Shown one piece after another: positions 10,828 to 18,402 of a stretch of DNA of 64,000 bases (positions are counted from its first letter, which is position 1; each line of letters opens with the position of its first letter). The notes beneath the pieces are model-generated. The model saw only the letters and a program-made list of their open reading frames with translations, was not told where the DNA came from and did not search any database. Location: assembly GCA_016839165.1 (NCBI GenBank), contig CP069300.1:1736001-1800000 (forward strand), written 5' to 3'. This DNA is from Bradyrhizobium sp. PSBB068 (lineage in GTDB: Bacteria; Pseudomonadota; Alphaproteobacteria; Rhizobiales; Xanthobacteraceae). A program made the translations under genes and the position numbers.

Positions 10828-11361
10828 TCAGCGCGCCGCGCCGCCGGCGTCCACCTCCTCGAGCAAGCTGAGAAGACCACGCAGGATCGTCATCGGAGGC
10901 GGAGGGCATCCCGGAATGTGGAGATCGACCGGGACAATTGCGGAAACCCCGCCCACCACTGCGTAGCTGCCAGCAAAGCATCCGCCGTCCCTGGCGCAAT
11001 CGCCCGCCGCGACAACCCATTTCGGATCGGGCGTTGCATTGTAGGTTCGCTCCAGCGCCTCGCGCATGTTCTTCGTCACCGGACCCGTGACGAGCAGGAC
11101 ATCGGCGTGACGGGGTGACGCGACAAACCAGATTCCAAATCGCTCGACGTCATAATACGGATTGCTGAGCGCGTGAATTTCCAGCTCGCATCCGTTGCAC
11201 GAGCCGGCATCAACCTCGCGGATCGACAGGCTGCGGCCGAGGCGGCGCCTTGCGGTGCGGCCGACCGTGGCCGCGAGTTCCGCGATCGCGGCGTCATCGG
11301 GACGCGGCGCCTGCTCGGTCAATGGCTGGCGAAACAGACTCTGAAGCAGAAGTTTGCGCAT
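10828..11361 (-). CDS. hyfI: Small Fe-S subunit of Ehr/Hyf-like complex (HyfI/NuoB-like)
   Basis: A 177-residue homologue of HycG/HyfI and NuoB. All four ligands of the [4Fe-4S] cluster N2 equivalent are present: C55 and C58 (AGSCNGCELEI), C122 (AAGDCARDGG) and C152 (IPGCPPPP). It would sit on the cytoplasmic face and pass electrons at the interface with the HyfG-like subunit. It is the last gene of the operon, 12 bp after hyfG. The intact cluster site beside a large subunit without its metal site is the telling combination. Confidence 0.9.
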   Translation of the reverse strand: MRKLLLQSLFRQPLTEQAPRPDDAAIAELAATVGRTARRRLGRSLSIREVDAGSCNGCELEIHALSNPYYDVERFGIWFVASPRHADVLLVTGPVTKNMREALERTYNATPDPKWVVAAGDCARDGGCFAGSYAVVGGVSAIVPVDLHIPGCPPPPMTILRGLLSLLEEVDAGGAAR

Positions 11362-11373
11362 CGCGTCCGGTCC

Positions 11374-12885
11374 TCAGAGGTCGTGCCCTGAATAGGAGCA
11401 GTTGAACGACTTGTTGCACAGCGGGAAGTCCGCCACGATGTTGCCTTCGATGGCCGCCTCGAGCAGGGGCCATTGAAACCATGACGGATCGCGCAGATGA
11501 CATCGTTCGATCCGGCCATCGCTCAGGCGGAGCCATGCCAGGATGTCGCCCCGGAAACCTTCGACGAGCGCGATGCCCTCGCAAGGCTCCGGCGCAATCT
11601 GCAACGGCACCCTGATTGGGCCGGCCTCGAGTGCATCGAGGATCTGGCCTGCCAGCGACAGGCTCTGCTCGACCTCGCGGATCCGGATCCAGACGCGGGC
11701 GTTCACGTCGCCGTCGTAGAGCGTAGGCACATCGAAGCGCAGGCCATCATAGGGGTGATAGCCGGGGCTGCGGCGGGCATCGTAGGTGCGGCCGCTGGCG
11801 CGTCCGACATAGCCGCCGGCGCCGAATTGAGTTGCGAGTGCCGCGGTGACGATGCCGGTGCCGACGGTTCGGTCCTGCAACGATGCCGTGTTGTCATAGA
11901 GCTCGACCAGCGATGGAAAATGCCGGCGGATCTGCTCGAGCGCGGCCCGGATTGCCGCAGGTCCTTCGCCGGCGATGTCGCGTGCCAGGCCACCGGGAAC
12001 GACGATGTCGCGCATCAGGCGGTGGCCGAATGCGGCGTCAGCCGAGCGCAGCACCTGTTCGCGCAGCACGCCGCAATGCGCATGCATGAGCGCGAACGAC
12101 GCGTCGTTGCAGATCGCGCCGATGTCGCCGAGATGGTTGGCCAGCCGCTCGAGCTCGGCCATCAGCGCGCGCAGCAACACCGCGCGCGGCGGCACCGCAA
12201 TCTGCTGCGCGGCCTCGACGGCTTGCGCGAACGCCAGTGCATAGGCAACCGTGCTGTCGCCGGACACCCGGCCGGCCAACCGCGCGGCCTGCTCGACGGT
12301 GCGTCCCGCCATCAACCCTTCGACCCCCTTATGGGTGTAGCCGAGCCGCTGCTCGAGGCGAACCACGGTCTCGCCGCTGGCGGTGAAGCGGAAATGTCCG
12401 GGTTCGATGATGCCGGCATGCACGGGGCCGACCGCAATCTGGTGCAGGCTGTCACCTTCGGCCGGAAGGAACGGATAAGGCGCTGGATCCGGTGCCGCAT
12501 CGAGACGTTGGCCCAGCGGTGCCTGCATTTGCCAGCGACCATGATCGAGCCAGGGGCGGCTGTCCGGCGTCGCGGTGGCCACGAGTCCGAACAGGTCGTG
12601 GATGGTGCGCTCCGGTCGAAGCGCCGGGCGATGGCGGGCGGCGACGGAGGGGTAGCGGCGATCGGGGCAATCCAGGCTGATCACACCAATATTGGATGTG
12701 CTGTTGTCAAGCAGCGCCATATGCACGCGCGACGGCTCGCCCCACAGTCCGAGCAAGCTCAGGCTGCCGTCCGCAAGGGCGCCGGCGGCGGAGCGCCAGG
12801 TGCCGCCGTCGACGCTGACGCGCGGCCATGGGTGATGCCGTTCAACTCTGCGGCCTGCCCGGATCAGATCGATCAATGCCGGCAT
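11374..12885 (-). CDS. hyfG: HyfG/NuoCD-like large subunit lacking the Ni-Fe ligands
   Basis: A 503-residue fusion: a NuoC-like N-terminal part (about 1-135) and a NuoD/HycE-like part with GPVHAGIIEPGHFRF and LGYTHKGVEGLMAGR. In group 4 hydrogenases two CxxC pairs bind Ni-Fe. Here the first reads R206-V-S-G-D-S (hydrogenases: RVCGIC) and the C-terminus reads KSFNCSYSGHDL (hydrogenases: KSFDLCYSCTDR). Both pairs are lost. It therefore cannot be a Ni-Fe hydrogenase and fits the Ehr group. It lies 18 bp after the hyfF-like gene. The electron donor and acceptor are unknown. Confidence 0.9.
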   Translation of the reverse strand: MPALIDLIRAGRRVERHHPWPRVSVDGGTWRSAAGALADGSLSLLGLWGEPSRVHMALLDNSTSNIGVISLDCPDRRYPSVAARHRPALRPERTIHDLFGLVATATPDSRPWLDHGRWQMQAPLGQRLDAAPDPAPYPFLPAEGDSLHQIAVGPVHAGIIEPGHFRFTASGETVVRLEQRLGYTHKGVEGLMAGRTVEQAARLAGRVSGDSTVAYALAFAQAVEAAQQIAVPPRAVLLRALMAELERLANHLGDIGAICNDASFALMHAHCGVLREQVLRSADAAFGHRLMRDIVVPGGLARDIAGEGPAAIRAALEQIRRHFPSLVELYDNTASLQDRTVGTGIVTAALATQFGAGGYVGRASGRTYDARRSPGYHPYDGLRFDVPTLYDGDVNARVWIRIREVEQSLSLAGQILDALEAGPIRVPLQIAPEPCEGIALVEGFRGDILAWLRLSDGRIERCHLRDPSWFQWPLLEAAIEGNIVADFPLCNKSFNCSYSGHDL

Positions 12886-12903
12886 GTCTCGTTCTCCCTC
12901 GCG

Positions 12904-14352
12904 CTAGCCCAGGAGGTTGGCGACGTGTTGGAACCAGACAACGAGCGGTCTCGGAAGATAGATGCCCGCAGTCAGCACCAGCGCGAAATGCGCGAACATC
13001 GGCAAATAGGACGCTTCGGCCGGCGCCGCACTGCCGCGCGGCTCGCCGAACGCAAGGCTCGTCAGGCGCAGCACGAGCGCGCCGAAGGCGAGCAGCAGGC
13101 CAAAGACCAGCGGGATCGCGAGCAGCGGCTGGCGCGCGAAGGTCGAGCTGACGATGAGAAATTCGCTCATGAAGATACCGAGCGGCGGCAGACCGGCGAT
13201 TGCGACAACGCCGATCACCAGGCCCCAGCCGAGCGCGGGATGGGTTTCAGTCAGGCCGCGAATGTTGGCGATCCGCTGCGTGCCCTTCACCTGCGCGATG
13301 TGGCCGACCGCGTAGAAGATCCCCGACTTTGTCAGGCTGTGCATCACCATGTGCAGCAGGCCGGCGAAGTTGGCGAGCGGGCCGCCCATCCCGAATGCAA
13401 ACACGATGATGCCCATATGCTCGATCGAGGAATAGGCGAACAGCCGTTTGATATCGCGGCGGCGGTAGAGCATGAAGGCCGCGAACAGCAACGAGGTCAG
13501 CCCCATCGTCACCATCAGCGGACCCGGTGATATCGCGTCCGGATTGGCGGCAAGCAGGATCTTGAAGCGGAGCACCGCGTAGAGCGCGACGTTGAGCAGC
13601 AGGCCGGAGAGCACGGCGGAGATCGGGGTCGGGCCCTCGGCGTGCGCATCCGGCAGCCAGGCGTGCAGCGGCGCGAGGCCAACCTTGGTCCCGTATCCGA
13701 GCAGCAGGAAGATGAAGGCAACGTTGAGCAATGCCGAATCGAATGCCGCGGCGCGGCTGACCAGCACTGTCCAGACCATCGCGTCCTGACCCTCGCCGAC
13801 GACCGGCAGCGCGGCCATGTAGACCAGGATGGTACCAAACAGCGCGAGCGCGATGCCGACGCTGCCGAGGATGAAATATTTCCAGGCAGCCTCCAGCGCC
13901 GCGTGGGTCCGGTAGATGCCGACCATCAAGACGGTGGTGAGCGTCGCGATCTCGATCGCGACCCACATCAGGCCGATATTGTTCGACACGAATGCGAGGT
14001 TCATGCCGAACATCATGACCTGATACATGGCATGGTAGAATCGCAGATAGCGCGGCGTCAGCCGTCCGGTCTCGAGCTCATGAGCAATGTAGCTCGCGCT
14101 GAACACGCTCGTGGTTAGACCGACGAAGGTGTTGAGCACGATGAAGACGATGTTGAGATCATCGACCAGCAGATACGGGCCGGGTTGCGGGCGGGCGACG
14201 ACGAGCAGCGAAAGCGCAGCCAGGAAGGTGCTGAAGCTGGCAACGATATTGAGCCCCGCGGTCAGCCGATAGCCGGGCAGCGCCGCCAGCACCGCTGCGG
14301 CGCAGATCGGTATCAGGAGAATCCAGGCAACGGCATCCGACGCCGCGTTCAT
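12904..14352 (-). CDS. hyfF: Antiporter-like membrane subunit (HyfF/NuoN-like)
   Basis: A 482-residue membrane protein of the ND2/4/5 proton-pump family with about 14 hydrophobic segments. The key charges are present: the Glu in LMWVAIEIATL, the Lys in EAAWKYFILGS, the Lys and following motif in GYGTKVGLAPLHAWLPDAHAEGP, and the Lys in MHSLTKSGIFY. These form the half-channels in complex I antiporter subunits, so ion pumping is plausible. The start overlaps the hyfE stop by 4 nt. Confidence 0.92.
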   Translation of the reverse strand: MNAASDAVAWILLIPICAAAVLAALPGYRLTAGLNIVASFSTFLAALSLLVVARPQPGPYLLVDDLNIVFIVLNTFVGLTTSVFSASYIAHELETGRLTPRYLRFYHAMYQVMMFGMNLAFVSNNIGLMWVAIEIATLTTVLMVGIYRTHAALEAAWKYFILGSVGIALALFGTILVYMAALPVVGEGQDAMVWTVLVSRAAAFDSALLNVAFIFLLLGYGTKVGLAPLHAWLPDAHAEGPTPISAVLSGLLLNVALYAVLRFKILLAANPDAISPGPLMVTMGLTSLLFAAFMLYRRRDIKRLFAYSSIEHMGIIVFAFGMGGPLANFAGLLHMVMHSLTKSGIFYAVGHIAQVKGTQRIANIRGLTETHPALGWGLVIGVVAIAGLPPLGIFMSEFLIVSSTFARQPLLAIPLVFGLLLAFGALVLRLTSLAFGEPRGSAAPAEASYLPMFAHFALVLTAGIYLPRPLVVWFQHVANLLG

Positions 14353-15011
14353 CGCCGCTCCCCCCTGAACTCATCGAGCGCACCGACATCGACGGTGTCG
14401 AAGCGCTCCCGGATCCGGAACAGGAACACGCCGATGACGATGAACGCGATCAGGATCGAGAAAGCCACGCTGATCTCCACGACCAGCGGCATGCCCTTGG
14501 CGCCGGTCGCGGCCAGCACCAATCCGTTTTCCAGCGACATGAAGCCGACGACCTGGCTGACGGCGTTGCGCCGCGTCACCATGACGAGCAGTCCCAGCAG
14601 CACCACCGACAGCGCGAAGGCGAGATCTTCCCTCGCCAGCGGATCGGCCGCGCCGGTCACCCGCAGCATCAGTACCATCGAGAGGGCGACGAGGCCCATG
14701 CCGGCCAGCATGGTCGGGCCGATACCGACTGCGGTCTCGATATCGCGATGAATGCCGAGCTGCTTGACGATCCGGTGCAGCGCCACCGGAATGATGATCG
14801 CCTTGAAGACCAGTGCGATGACCGCGGTCACGTAGAGATGCGGTGCGTTCTGGATGAATGCCTGCCAGGCGACGGAGAGCGCGAGCACCACGGCATGAGC
14901 TGCAAAGATGTTCAGCAACGCATACAGGCGATCCTGATACAGCATCATGAAGCTGATCAGCACGAGCCCGCCGGCGAGCAGATGAGCAATGTCGAAGGCG
15001 AGGTTGTGCAT
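14349..15011 (-). CDS. hyfE: Membrane subunit HyfE-like
   Basis: A 220-residue protein with about six hydrophobic segments, similar to HyfE of hydrogenase 4. Its second half (QVVGFMSLENGLVLAATGAKGMPLVVE) resembles NuoK, with the membrane Glu in SLENG. In related complexes this small subunit links the pump modules. The ATG overlaps the preceding hyfC stop by 1 nt (TGATG) and its own stop overlaps the hyfF start, so translation is coupled. Confidence 0.9.
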   Translation of the reverse strand: MHNLAFDIAHLLAGGLVLISFMMLYQDRLYALLNIFAAHAVVLALSVAWQAFIQNAPHLYVTAVIALVFKAIIIPVALHRIVKQLGIHRDIETAVGIGPTMLAGMGLVALSMVLMLRVTGAADPLAREDLAFALSVVLLGLLVMVTRRNAVSQVVGFMSLENGLVLAATGAKGMPLVVEISVAFSILIAFIVIGVFLFRIRERFDTVDVGALDEFRGERR

Positions 15012-15967
15012 CAGAAGCCTCGCGATACGAACCGGAGAAGCGTACCGAGCAGGCCCAGCATGAGCGCGGCGCCGAGGAACTCGGGAACACGGAAGACCCG
15101 CACCTTCGCCGTCGCGGTCTCGAACATCGCAAGCAGGAAGCTTGCGATCACGAGCTTGAGGATGTAGGCGGCGACGCTCACGAGGTAGGATAGCGGGCCT
15201 GCGCCTTCGGTGGTGATCTGCCAGGGAAAGAACACGCAGATGATCAGCGAGACGTAGAGCTGGAGCTTGAGAAAGGCGCCGAACTCGATCATGGCGAGAT
15301 GGCGTCCGGAATATTCCAGGATCATCGCCTCATGCACCATGGTCAGCTCCAGATGCGTGGCCGGGTTGTCGATTGGAATACGGGCGTTCTCGGCGAGCGC
15401 CACCATGATGAGGGCAATCATCGCCATGCCGAGCGAGACGCGCAGGCCCACTTCGGATGACGCCATGAAGGTCGCGACCGTCGACAGCTGGGTCGAGCCG
15501 GCGATTAGCGCGACGCAGAACACCATCAACAGCATGGCCGGTTCGGCGAGCGCGGCGATCATCACCTCGCGGCTGGAGCCGATGCCGCCGAAGCTGGTGC
15601 CGACATCCATGCCGGCAAGCGCGAGGAAGAAGCGCGCGCTGCCGAGCAGGGCGACGATTGCGATCAGGTCGGCACTCCAGCTGAACTCAAGGCCGGTGGC
15701 AAATGTCGGGACCAATGCCGCGGCGACCCAGATCGCGGCGAACGTGATGTAGGGTGTGACGCGGAACAGCCAGGACGCGTTTTCGGCCAGAACGACTTCC
15801 TTGCGAAGCAACCGCAGCAGATCACGATACGGCTGGACGATCGATGGTCCTTTGCGGCGTAGCAGGCGAGCCTTCATCTTGCGCACGACGCCGGTCAGGA
15901 GCGGCGCAAGCAGCAGAACAAGCGTCATCTGGCCCAGTTGAACGAGGATGTCCGAGATCACGACCAT
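15011..15967 (-). CDS. hyfC: Membrane anchor subunit HyfC/HycD (NuoH-like)
   Basis: A 318-residue homologue of NuoH/HycD with about eight hydrophobic segments. Conserved NuoH features are KGPSIVQPYRDLLRLLRKE, ALAENARIPIDNPATHLELTMVHEAMILEYSGRH and the C-terminal KVRVFRVPEFLG. In complex I this subunit carries the quinone tunnel and contacts NuoB/NuoD. ATG 15967 overlaps the end of hyfB by 10 nt and gives the standard N-terminus; the open frame beyond is inside hyfB. Confidence 0.92.
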   Translation of the reverse strand: MVVISDILVQLGQMTLVLLLAPLLTGVVRKMKARLLRRKGPSIVQPYRDLLRLLRKEVVLAENASWLFRVTPYITFAAIWVAAALVPTFATGLEFSWSADLIAIVALLGSARFFLALAGMDVGTSFGGIGSSREVMIAALAEPAMLLMVFCVALIAGSTQLSTVATFMASSEVGLRVSLGMAMIALIMVALAENARIPIDNPATHLELTMVHEAMILEYSGRHLAMIEFGAFLKLQLYVSLIICVFFPWQITTEGAGPLSYLVSVAAYILKLVIASFLLAMFETATAKVRVFRVPEFLGAALMLGLLGTLLRFVSRGF

Positions 15968-17973
15968 ATCGCGAGCGCCAGCAGCAATGTGACGAGGGTT
16001 GCGAAGACCAGGCTGAGATAGCGGCGGATGGTGAGGAACTGGAGCTGGTTCAGCCGATCGGCAAAGAACCACACCGTTTCGGTCACCGGCGTGTAGAGCC
16101 GTTCCCAGACTGGATCGTGCATGTCGATCCTGAGGCGGGCCGGCCGCAAGTCACCCGGCGGCGGCATGTCGACGTGTTCGCGGGCCTGGAAGATCAATGT
16201 GCCGAACACGCGGCGGATCGGCTGGACGAAGCTTACTCCGGAATATTGCGCCGCCGGAGCCGGATCGGTAAAGCCGCAACCCCAGGCGGGCCCGCGCCTG
16301 ATCGCGCGCGATGCAAACCGATGGATGAAATACACGGCAAGCGATGCCGCAGCCGTGATGAAGATGAAGACGAGCAATCCGTTGTAGGAGCTGCGGCTCT
16401 CCTCGATCGGAACGATCGAAAGCCAGGCGTCGCTCGCCTGAACCGGCATTCGGTTGCCGATCACGGCCATTGCGACGGGCGACAGCGCGTCGATCACCAG
16501 GCCCGGCAGAATTCCGGCGAGGAAGCACAGCGCGGCGAGGCCAAACATCGCGGCGAGGCTATAGCGATCGACCTCGCCGGCGGCCTCAGCGGCCGGGCTT
16601 CGCGCGCGGCCGAGGAAGGTGATCCCGAAGGCCTTGACGAAGCACGCGGCCGCGAGCGCTGCCGCCAGCGCCAGCAACGCGCCGACCGCGGGCACCATGA
16701 TCTTCAGCATCCATTGTGGCAGATCGGGGCTTTGCAGGACCGCCTGGAACATCAGCCATTCCGATACGAACCCGTTGAACGGCGGAAGCGCCGAGATCGC
16801 AACGCAGCCGACGAGAAAGACGAAGCTGGTAAGCGGCATGCGGTGGATCAGGCCGCCCAGTTTCTCCATGTCGCGTTCGCCGGTGGCCGTCAGCACCGCA
16901 CCGGCGCCGAAGAACAGCAGGCTCTTGAAGAACGAATGGTTGAGGACGTGGAACAGCGCGGCTGTGAAAGCGAGGGCCGCCGCCAGGCCGTAGCCGTTCG
17001 CCTGAAACGCCAATGCGAGACCGAGGCTCGCGAACACGACGCCGATGTTCTCGATCGTGCTGTAGGCGAGCAGGCGCTTGAGATCCTTCTCCATCAGCGC
17101 ATAGAGGATCCCCATCACCGCGGTCACTCCGCCGAGCACGAGAACGACGACACCCGCCGACCAGTTCGGCGGTCCGAGCAGATCGAACACGACGCGGATG
17201 AATCCGTAGACCGCGACCTTCGTCATCACGCCGCTCATCAGCGCCGAGACATGGCTCGGGGCCGCGGGGTGAGCGAGCGGCAGCCATACATGCAGCGGGA
17301 CCAGGCCGGCCTTCGACCCGGCGCCGAGCAGCATCAGCGCAAGCACCAGCGCGGCTTCGAACGGCGTGTGCTGGACGCCGCGCATGGCCGCAAAGCTGTA
17401 ACTGCCGCCGGCTCCCGACAGCAGGCCAAACGCAAGCAGCAGAGCCAGGGTCCCGAAGCTTGCCATCACGAGATAGACGTAGCCCGCCCGAGCATTGTCT
17501 GCTTCACGGTGGTGCGCCATGACGAGCGCCCACGACGCGAGCGACATGAATTCCCAGCACAGCAGATAGGTGAACGCGTCGTCGGCAAGCACAACGAGAT
17601 TCATTCCGGCGAGGAACGCCGGAAAGAACGGCAGGACGCGTTGCGGCGTCGATTCGTGGCTGCCGTAGCCGAGCCCATACAGGCTTGCGGCCGCACCGCC
17701 GAGATTGACCACCGCGAGAAAGAATGCGGCGAGCGCATCGAGACGGAAATGCGAGCCCAGCCAGGGCAGGCCGACCGGCAACATCAGTTCGGTCGCATTG
17801 CTGTGGGCGATCAGCGCGTGCAGCGCCGCGGCCAGCGCGATCGCCGAGATGGCAAAGGTCGCGCCGTAGACGACGGCTGTCGATCGGCGTGATCGGCTGG
17901 TGGCAATCGCGAGAATGGTCGTCGCCAGCAGCGCGGCTACACACCAGAGCTGCTGGGCGACCGTTGAGATCAC
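15958..17973 (-). CDS. hyfB: Antiporter-like membrane subunit HyfB (NuoL-like)
   Basis: A 671-residue ND5/MrpA-like protein with about 16 hydrophobic segments. The pump motif is intact: LLCWEFMSLASW (Glu), GAGSKAGLVPLHVWLPLAHPAAPSHVS (Lys), LNHSFFKSLLFFGAG (Lys). The extended C-terminus (GPAWGCGFTDPAPAAQYSGVSFVQPIRRVFG) is typical of HyfB/HycC. Translation starts at GTG 17973 and overlaps the XRE gene stop by 4 nt (GTGA). It is the first structural gene of the complex and, with HyfF, the likely ion-translocating unit. Confidence 0.92.
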   Translation of the reverse strand: MISTVAQQLWCVAALLATTILAIATSRSRRSTAVVYGATFAISAIALAAALHALIAHSNATELMLPVGLPWLGSHFRLDALAAFFLAVVNLGGAAASLYGLGYGSHESTPQRVLPFFPAFLAGMNLVVLADDAFTYLLCWEFMSLASWALVMAHHREADNARAGYVYLVMASFGTLALLLAFGLLSGAGGSYSFAAMRGVQHTPFEAALVLALMLLGAGSKAGLVPLHVWLPLAHPAAPSHVSALMSGVMTKVAVYGFIRVVFDLLGPPNWSAGVVVLVLGGVTAVMGILYALMEKDLKRLLAYSTIENIGVVFASLGLALAFQANGYGLAAALAFTAALFHVLNHSFFKSLLFFGAGAVLTATGERDMEKLGGLIHRMPLTSFVFLVGCVAISALPPFNGFVSEWLMFQAVLQSPDLPQWMLKIMVPAVGALLALAAALAAACFVKAFGITFLGRARSPAAEAAGEVDRYSLAAMFGLAALCFLAGILPGLVIDALSPVAMAVIGNRMPVQASDAWLSIVPIEESRSSYNGLLVFIFITAAASLAVYFIHRFASRAIRRGPAWGCGFTDPAPAAQYSGVSFVQPIRRVFGTLIFQAREHVDMPPPGDLRPARLRIDMHDPVWERLYTPVTETVWFFADRLNQLQFLTIRRYLSLVFATLVTLLLALAIWS

Positions 17974-18242
17974 GTCTGCACCTTCGGCGAGCCTGACCCG
18001 GCCCTCAATCGTACGCCGCGGCCGCCGCCGCTGCTGACGGCGCCCTCGCCGATGACCTCGACGCCGGCCGCACCGAGTGCGTCGATCAGTTTCACCAGCG
18101 AGTCGACATTGCCTCGAATGGTGCCTTCGCTTGCTTCCATGCGCTGGATGGTCGGCACCGACAACCCGGACAGCTCGGCGAGCTGCCGCTGGTCGATGCC
18201 AAGCAAGGCTCTTGCAGCCCGAAGCTGCGCTGCAGTGATCAT
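17970..18242 (-). CDS. Small XRE-family HTH regulator heading the Ehr operon
   Basis: A 90-residue protein. Residues 4-58 are a Cro/C1-type helix-turn-helix (AAQLRAARALLGIDQRQLAELSGLSVPTIQRMEASEG). The tail GVEVIGEGAVSSGGGRGVRLR is a short beta segment seen in many small rhizobial HTH proteins. It is the first gene of the operon and is translationally coupled to hyfB, so it is probably an autoregulator of the complex. The AT-rich region upstream carries direct and inverted repeats that could be its site. Confidence 0.88.
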   Translation of the reverse strand: MITAAQLRAARALLGIDQRQLAELSGLSVPTIQRMEASEGTIRGNVDSLVKLIDALGAAGVEVIGEGAVSSGGGRGVRLRAGSGSPKVQT

Positions 18243-18295
18243 CGATCGGGCCGTCGGTTGGGAGTCGGGTCTAGCTGAATGTCATCTATGCATAT

Positions 18296-18328
18296 TAAGT
18301 AATGATGTTGCAAGTGCAATAAGTAATG
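18296..18328. promoter_or_regulatory. Repeat-rich candidate operator/promoter of the Ehr operon
   Basis: TAAGTAATG occurs at 18296-18304 and 18320-18328 as a 24-bp-spaced direct repeat, flanking the inverted repeat TTGCA-AG-TGCAA at 18308-18319. The region 18290-18350 is much more AT-rich than its surroundings and lies 54-86 bp upstream of the XRE start. This is the likely operon promoter and the XRE binding region. Confidence 0.5.
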
Positions 18329-18402
18329 TTTTATACATCATTTATGGGCGGACTATCGGCGCGATCGATGCCGCGTGCGGGCAAGAATCCGCTGCTGGGT
18401 GC

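Follow-up and report, generated by a model that had tools for sequence, protein, structure and literature searches.

A conserved HyfBCEFGI complex of the Ehr class in Bradyrhizobium sp. PSBB068 with a predicted polar pocket in place of the NiFe site

We analyzed a stretch of 64,000 nucleotides of Bradyrhizobium sp. PSBB068 (hereafter the window; C1:1736001-1800000, where C1 is contig CP069300.1 of the 7.67-Mb, two-contig genome) and focused on seven minus-strand open reading frames (ORFs) at window positions 10828-18242, which overlap or lie no more than 18 bp from their neighbors. The operon is intact and runs XRE regulator-hyfB-C-E-F-G-I; its coordinates and family matches agree with a preliminary description of the same seven coupled genes that had been made from the letters alone. 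By sequence comparison, we conclude that the operon encodes a six-subunit HyfBCEFGI complex of the Ehr class and belongs to a clade of that class without a ferredoxin domain. The predicted complex has a complete complex-I-type membrane arm (the NuoH-like HyfC, HyfE, and two antiporter-like pumps) and a peripheral arm with one hydrogenase-type proximal [4Fe-4S] site, in which the NiFe/quinone pocket appears to have been remade as a conserved polar site. Ehr complexes have been described as having no CxxC pairs, an Mrp/complex-I-type membrane arm and an unknown function (PMC6349859 and PMC10284858), and hyfBCEFGI clusters have been reported in PMC2864759, PMC5596200 and PMC7735108. Both the class and its lack of Ni motifs are therefore already published, and the window complex is a well-conserved further member that is, as first described, functionally open, the published clusters likewise having no assigned function.

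Subunits were identified with Pfam and NCBIfam profiles. The large subunit, HyfG (503 amino acids; window 11374-12885, minus strand, as are all features of the operon), joins a NuoC-like to a NuoD-like part (PF00329 and PF00346), and its best PDB match was HycE of the Escherichia coli formate hydrogenlyase (FHL; 7z0s, E 2.4e-55), ahead of all complex I subunits. When aligned with HycE, the Ni ligands C241, C244, C531, and C534 fall on S208, S211, S497, and G500 of HyfG. The motif RVCGIC thus reads RVSGDS (residues 206-211; codons at 12253-12270), as had been described, and DPCYSC reads NCSYSG, within NKSFNCSYSGHDL (residues 491-503; codons at 11377-11415), which stands in place of the DPCxxC region. 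The preliminary description had set CSYSGHDL against a hydrogenase motif LCYSCTDR; the loss of cysteine is correct, but HycE and the E. coli HyfG read DPCYSCTDR. C496 of the window protein aligns with the proline of DPCYSC and not with a Ni ligand, and it is not universal in the family (115 of 135 rows; Leu in 14).

To place these replacements in the family, 141 loci were gathered (L015-L047, L128-L147, the named genome contigs L048-L127, and the plasmid stretches L154-L161, of which L154 is the same record as L066). A large subunit scoring above 80 bits was found in 139, with two in L157. Three loci were set aside, L045 because it belongs to another subfamily and L046 and L047 because they are true hydrogenases that keep CxxC, which left an alignment of 138 HyfG rows, including the window and the deeper branches L157b, L159, L160, and L161, and 135 unique rows once three duplicate pairs were dropped. 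Cysteine occurs at the former Ni positions in just two unique rows (L061 and L140), once in each and both times at position 208. A sequencing error at both motifs, which the preliminary description had named as its possible undoing, is excluded because the remaining 133 of the 135 rows share the loss. The other such possibility, a second large subunit with intact motifs serving this complex, also failed to materialize: profile searches of the whole genome found no intact group 4 large subunit able to do so. PF00346 (49-kDa) matched NuoD and HyfG only; PF01058 matched HyfI, NuoB, and one hydrogenase small subunit; and PF00374 matched a single further NiFe large subunit (C1:5.09 Mb) that has the motif RACGIC, adjoins its own small subunit, has no PF00346 match, and represents a separate hydrogenase.

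The positions that surround the former Ni site are kept almost throughout the 135 unique rows: H156 (132 rows), I160 (132), E161 (133), S208 (129), G209 (133), D210 (133), D254 (131), D261 (133), H288 (132), D466 (133), N491 (133), K492 (134), N495 (132), S497 (128), Y498 (133), G500 (135), and D502 (134). In a wider set of 70 sequences, some of them named Planctomycetes, Omnitrophica, Anaeromyxobacter, NC10, and Methanoperedens, D210, D254, D261, K492, and G500 are kept in all 70, and R206, S208, N260, and H288 vary. We conclude that the former NiFe pocket has apparently been rebuilt from the near-invariant residues E161, D210, D261, K492, N495, and G500, which supplies specific residues for mutation. 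The cysteine pairs had been called lost; they are indeed absent, but the word falls short of the near-invariant new site in their place. The large subunit of L143 is of the window type with a diverged pocket (GPVFGGVEASSQF, SHAGCDL). We note that public names of HyfG orthologues are misleading, for example "hydrogenase expression protein HypE" and "NADH-quinone oxidoreductase subunit C".

The contents of the pocket were placed by comparison with homologous residues identified in PMC9474812 and PMC7684303. The former names, in HycE, the proton-gate residue Glu193 and its neighbor Asp192, the canopy residues Arg478 and Asp529, and the path residues R395, E437, and H284. In window HyfG, Glu193 is retained as E161, the adjoining Asp192 is replaced by I160, and Asp529 is replaced by N495; R395, E437, R478, and H284 correspond to R362, E404, R445, and H251, which are kept in 138 of 138 rows. 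At the positions of H38 and Y87 of Nqo4, the residues for the quinone headgroup in complex I (PMC7684303), HyfG has I160 and G209, so that both are absent. With the Ni and the quinone-headgroup residues replaced, the HyfG pocket is neither of the NiFe type nor of the quinone type found in complex I. The residue opposite D261 in the alignment is an Asp in NuoCD but Phe in HycE. In complex I, this Asp is the partner of the quinone His. The C-terminal extension of group 4 hydrogenases is cleaved; the 32-residue extension of the E. coli proteins HycE and HyfG, also present in L046 and L047, occurs in 0 of 138 HyfG rows. Ratios of nonsynonymous to synonymous substitution (dN/dS; Nei-Gojobori method, own script) between the window and L048 ranged from 0.04 (hyfE) to 0.18 (hyfG) over all seven genes, and those between the window and L015, L050, and L053 ranged from 0.04 to 0.22. 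Because the pocket is near-invariant, comparison with a close relative gives dN/dS of 0.04-0.18, and the pump residues and [4Fe-4S] ligands are kept, the loss of the Ni ligands is not decay.

The small subunit, HyfI (NuoB-like, 177 amino acids; 10828-11361; PF01058, E 1.7e-33), has HycG as its best match. Alignment with HycG bears out the described ligands C55, C58, C122, and C152, with hydrogenase-type CxxC spacing, and 131 of 132 unique small-subunit rows of the family have all four proximal-cluster cysteines. The pump residues of the membrane arm are likewise intact, as had been stated: E134, K223, and E397 of HyfF (482 amino acids; 12904-14352; NF005043, 1e-276), E161 and E179 of HyfE (220 amino acids; 14349-15011; NF008556, 5.5e-22, under its cut-off), E144, D202, E209, and E220 of HyfC (15011-15967; PF00146, 2.6e-39), and E141, K221, K350, and E405 of HyfB (671 amino acids, GTG start; 15958-17973; NF005086, 1.2e-271). 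Each of these is kept in at least 97% of 125-133 rows (L045-L047, L157b, and L161 left out) and matches the same residue in the E. coli Hyf subunits. The HyfC start is most plausibly the ATG at 15967 rather than the mechanically called GTG at 16072; the orthologous operon on pRL11 has an identical 10-bp hyfB/hyfC overlap, as expected for the ATG. In L129, L131, and L146, two tandem hyfB-like genes precede hyfC, possibly adding a pump.

The large-subunit comparison that the preliminary description had proposed, with HycE, NuoD, and known Ehr sequences, confirmed both the absence of Ni ligands and the Ehr grouping. In an IQ-TREE phylogeny of 51 rows with a midpoint root, in which the CH34 cluster (L156) represented published Ehr sequences, an Ehr clade of 45 rows stood apart from Hyf/Hyc plus Nuo (support 100/98), and a 40-row clade held both the window and CH34 (support 100/99). 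Membership of the Ehr class is thus indicated by a group-4-like large subunit without Ni/Fe cysteines, by the Mrp antiporter-like HyfB and HyfF, and by the tree. Mrp antiporters are antiporter subunits without a hydrogenase-like peripheral arm, and the operon includes the peripheral-arm subunits HyfG and HyfI. A group 4 NiFe hydrogenase would have two CxxC pairs and the C-terminal extension; E. coli FHL-1 and hydrogenase-4 (HycBCDEFG and HyfA-J) share homologous subunits, the proximal CxxC, and Glu193/E161 with the window complex, which differs in the absence of HyfA, D, H, and J, of the Ni cysteines, and of the C-terminal maturation peptide, and in the Asp529 to Asn495 exchange. Complex I (NuoBCDH plus antiporters) shares the fold, the D261 equivalent, and the E-channel and pump residues; unlike it, the window complex has no NADH module or NuoI, has I160 and G209 at the NuoD quinone His and Tyr positions, and has CxxC rather than tandem CC. 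The sulfane reductase MBS of Pyrococcus furiosus is also a complex I relative that has lost its NiFe site, and has a three-Cys proximal cluster, a hydrophobic pocket, no E21 equivalent, and two of the four Ni-site cysteines left (PMC7684303). The HyfG pocket is therefore not of the MBS type: the window complex has all four cluster cysteines with hydrogenase spacing, E161, and a polar pocket, and it lacks every one of the four Ni-site cysteines.

Closer likenesses are found among the six- or seven-gene clusters without NiFe ligands of C. metallidurans CH34 and C. necator H16 (PMC2864759), Nitrospira (PMC5596200 and PMC12342949), At. ferrooxidans (PMC7735108), Sulfobacillus (PMC4378227), and Thermus (PMC13019369). 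Expression of the Ehr genes of N. moscoviensis was not raised by H2 (PMC12342949). CH34 shares the 40-row clade and the absence of the ferredoxin domain with the window but falls in a separate betaproteobacterial-type subclade, and, unlike CH34, the window branch is headed by a 90-amino acid XRE regulator with its own putative operator.

No CxxCxxCxxxC ferredoxin motif was found among window ORFs of at least 40 amino acids, so the ferredoxin-like subunit reported as missing is indeed absent from the window. That absence looks derived, however. In 3 of 137 rows, the small subunit carries a ferredoxin domain as an N-terminal fusion (L045:7698-8486, L161:15086-15919, and the second Variovorax operon in L157, L157:2487-3236; Pfam match for the latter two), and these rows fall outside the 40-row clade of the window, although L157b and L160 are long branches whose joining is unsafe. 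With the fused rows placed outside this clade, an early presence of the domain and its loss in the window clade are probable, and because deeper-branch small subunits carry it, electron input is probably ancestral.

Further, some relatives have lost the cluster itself. Among the best 120 listed small-subunit homologues of Allomeiothermus silvanus, 71 have no Cys at any of the four proximal-cluster positions; 44 of these are of the Meiothermus/Calidithermus/Thermus/Deinococcus type, and the 27 others include two Gaiellaceae and one Acidimicrobiales by name. The small subunit of a Mycobacterium branderi plasmid operon (L169:8848-9642), like that of the A. silvanus plasmid (L160:15260-16132), has no proximal-cluster cysteines. 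These forms retain one CP...CxxCxxC motif in a fused ferredoxin-like domain, so that Thermaceae-type Ehr differs from the window in having such a domain and lacking the proximal cysteines. In the operons of L160 and L169, HyfF keeps 11/11 checked residues in both, HyfE 4/5 in both, HyfB 9/10 and 7/10, and HyfC 14/17 and 9/17, respectively. Among 50 Thermaceae-type large subunits, E161 and D261 are kept in 50 and K492 in 47, with 3 gaps; the RxSGDS loop has lost one residue and its acid has moved by one position, and 47 have His in place of D254. A Thermus paper reports the absence of Ni motifs, and no mention of the cluster cysteines was found in the excerpts consulted (PMC13019369); nor did the literature searched describe proximal-cluster Cys loss in Ehr, which does not prove that no such description exists.

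How such a complex would work can be stated only tentatively. The reading we favor, at somewhat less than even confidence, is that of a redox-linked ion translocator that works with a soluble partner encoded elsewhere and a pocket ligand that is neither H2 nor a complex-I-type quinone. A soluble redox protein would exchange electrons directly with the HyfI cluster, and a small polar ligand, which would not be H2, complex-I-bound quinone, or MBS-type polysulfide, would be bound or converted beside the cluster around E161, D210, D261, and K492. Movement of the beta1-beta2 loop (E161) and protonation would then be passed via the HyfC glutamates to HyfF and HyfB, which would move H+ or Na+ in one direction or the other. 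In keeping with a partner encoded elsewhere, the neighborhood of the cassette shows no recurrent candidate for its gene. Four points weigh against this proposal. First, genome and neighbor comparisons point to no specific donor, acceptor, or ligand. Second, L159 has a small subunit without the ferredoxin domain, yet branches outside the window clade, so that the domain, perhaps lost separately there, was lost repeatedly or its history is unsure. Third, the same Rhodococcus plasmid operon keeps the Fe-S ligands, but its HyfF lacks E134, K223, K302, and E397. Fourth, the cluster-less relatives keep central pump residues, which indicates that not all Ehr complexes pass electrons to the pocket. 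The gene order of L159 is that of the Mycobacterium tuberculosis locus Rv0082-Rv0087.

The fourth point is also what keeps alive the strongest alternative, which we nevertheless consider unlikely: a ligand-gated, non-redox cation/proton antiporter, that is, an Mrp-like transporter with a recycled hydrogenase head and a structural or sensing Fe-S cluster. The 71 cluster-less homologues, the pump residues kept in both operons checked, and the persistence of E161, D261, and K492 in Thermaceae all fit it. The window family, however, keeps its four cysteines almost without exception; the cluster-less forms still have CP...CxxCxxC; the Thermaceae pocket is itself altered by the loop deletion and the change at D254; and the HyfC charges are only partly kept. 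Extended to the whole class, the same idea would make Ehr complexes hydrogenase-derived translocators with a redox-inactive head, in which a polar ligand pocket gates the pumps and the Fe-S clusters are leftovers or sensors lost piecemeal while the pumps are kept, the ferredoxin domain in the window clade and the proximal cluster in Thermaceae and in Actinomycetota such as Gaiellaceae and Mycobacterium branderi; this, too, we regard as doubtful. In any case, the cluster-less relatives offer a natural experiment: they may show whether a pump arm of the complex-I type works when no electrons reach the coupling pocket, a question that bears on complex I coupling itself.

It is less probable that a formate dehydrogenase (FDH) or CO dehydrogenase (CODH) encoded elsewhere docks as the electron input. 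An FDH-Ehr association has been proposed (PMC6349859), and a CODH adjoins Ehr in Ca. Nitrospira nitrosa (PMC5596200). The genome has 13 Fdh-alpha matches, none in the window and two elsewhere over the cut-off; the earlier statement that no formate dehydrogenase gene is present thus holds for the window but not genome-wide. Against docking, the complex has no ferredoxin-type docking subunit, the neighbor comparison revealed no recurrent dehydrogenase next to the cassette, and form I CoxL is no commoner in genomes with Ehr (7/35 versus 38/262, p 0.45). Neighbors and CoxL therefore give the linkage no genomic support, FDH co-occurrence not being among the tests. A quinone oxidoreductase, or minimal complex I, is more improbable again: the pocket occupies the complex I quinone-binding position and D261 matches NuoCD rather than HycE, but the two headgroup residues named in PMC7684303 are replaced and there is no tandem-Cys N2 coordination. 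A decaying hydrogenase, or one with a non-cysteine metal site, is very improbable despite the clear descent from the HycE/HyfG fold, given strong purifying selection, the near-invariant replacement pocket, and the maturation extension missing from all rows. The redox-linked translocator thus remains our tentative preference.

The window-type operon is a self-contained cassette. The order B-C-E-F-G-I is constant in the complete window-type loci examined; some loci miss genes or show swapped neighbors, which we ascribe to contig ends and overlapping ORFs. When neighbors in the 80 named loci were clustered (>30% identity over 60% of length; genes called by our own composition heuristic, which may miss short or weakly coding ones), an XRE-type gene recurred in 29 loci, an apparent ABC-transporter ATPase in 10, a methyltransferase-like gene in 6, and the rest in 5 or fewer. 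A direct search placed an XRE gene immediately before hyfB, in the same orientation, in 59 of 131 loci, some of them truncated. In some betaproteobacterial-type loci, this position holds ribbon-helix-helix or PuuR-like XRE-cupin genes.

The window regulator (XRE/HTH_3, 90 amino acids; PF01381) is the first gene of the operon (17970-18242) and is preceded by a putative XRE operator, TGATGTATAAAACATTA (18324-18340), with 1 mismatch to TGATGT-N5-ACATCA, and, just downstream of it, by a promoter-like TTGCAC-N16-TAATAT (18292-18319), similar boxes being visible by eye in several orthologues. Among 57 de-duplicated XRE upstream regions, the window included, the operator occurs in 20 with at most 1 mismatch (block-shuffled mean 0.03) and in 31 with at most 2 (mean 0.39); because the consensus was read from the same regions, these counts are descriptive and no independent test. 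The XRE protein probably controls its own operon. Loose scans for FNR/FixK sites against whole-region shuffles gave 32/121 versus 11.8 for TTGATN4ATCAA (at most 2 mismatches) and 28/121 versus 13.0 for TTGAN6TCAA (at most 1), but the strict TTGATN4ATCAA scan with local shuffles gave 3/121 versus 1.2, with 5/132 in the downstream control, and FNR/FixK control is thus unsupported. Upstream scans for RpoN-like (41 versus 40.4) and NifA-like sites (15 versus 12.2) were near chance. A direct repeat of the window, CATTACTTA, occurs in 7 of 60 upstream regions (shuffle mean 2.5, maximum 6).

The novel aspects, as far as the comparisons suggest, are that beyond XRE-type genes every neighbor is limited to 10 or fewer of the 80 named loci and a putative XRE operator lies upstream; that deeper relatives carry a ferredoxin domain on the small subunit that the window clade lacks; and that Thermaceae and Actinomycetota relatives appear to have lost the proximal-cluster cysteines, with central pump residues kept in the two operons checked. 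Ehr complexes are common, stand at the evolutionary junction of hydrogenases and complex I, and still lack an assigned reaction. At E <= 1e-140, the window type was found in 35 of 297 sampled genomes of the order, its own included, and in 5 of 9 within the genus; a phylum sample gave 73 of 398 genomes at 1e-60, 62 of them of at least 1e-131 quality and one of the 11 weaker being a fragment. The nearest named relatives of window HyfG are from Bradyrhizobium. Plasmid records matching at 1e-30 numbered 81, some annotated as hycE/hyfG hydrogenases, and an annotated cassette is present on pRL11, a conjugative plasmid of Rhizobium johnstonii. A Terriglobia-titled contig (L075) falls among alphaproteobacterial rows in the tree, which suggests transfer or misbinning. 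RuBisCO form I is commoner in genomes with Ehr (18/35 versus 57/262, p 0.0006, uncorrected for kinship); this was not used as evidence and may reflect kinship, since within the window genus all 9 sampled genomes have RuBisCO and only 5 have Ehr.

The gene immediately upstream of the operon, in the same orientation, encodes a CHAD domain (PF05235; 18403-19383). Spermidine-synthase-like genes (PF01564) lie near the operon in Burkholderiales-type loci (L128:16033-16800, L132:5657-6493, L156:14468-15283, and L157:5567-6301 and 14504-15262). In five loci other than these, the regulator is a PuuR-like XRE-cupin that scores under the PuuR cut-off. Within 55 Ehr genomes, of which coordinates covered 40, 3 of 80 PF01564 places were within 12 kb of the Ehr large subunit, in 2 genomes, and the alphaproteobacterial neighbors scanned (L016, L027, and L054) were general methyltransferases; a polyamine link of the operon is thus a weak lead.

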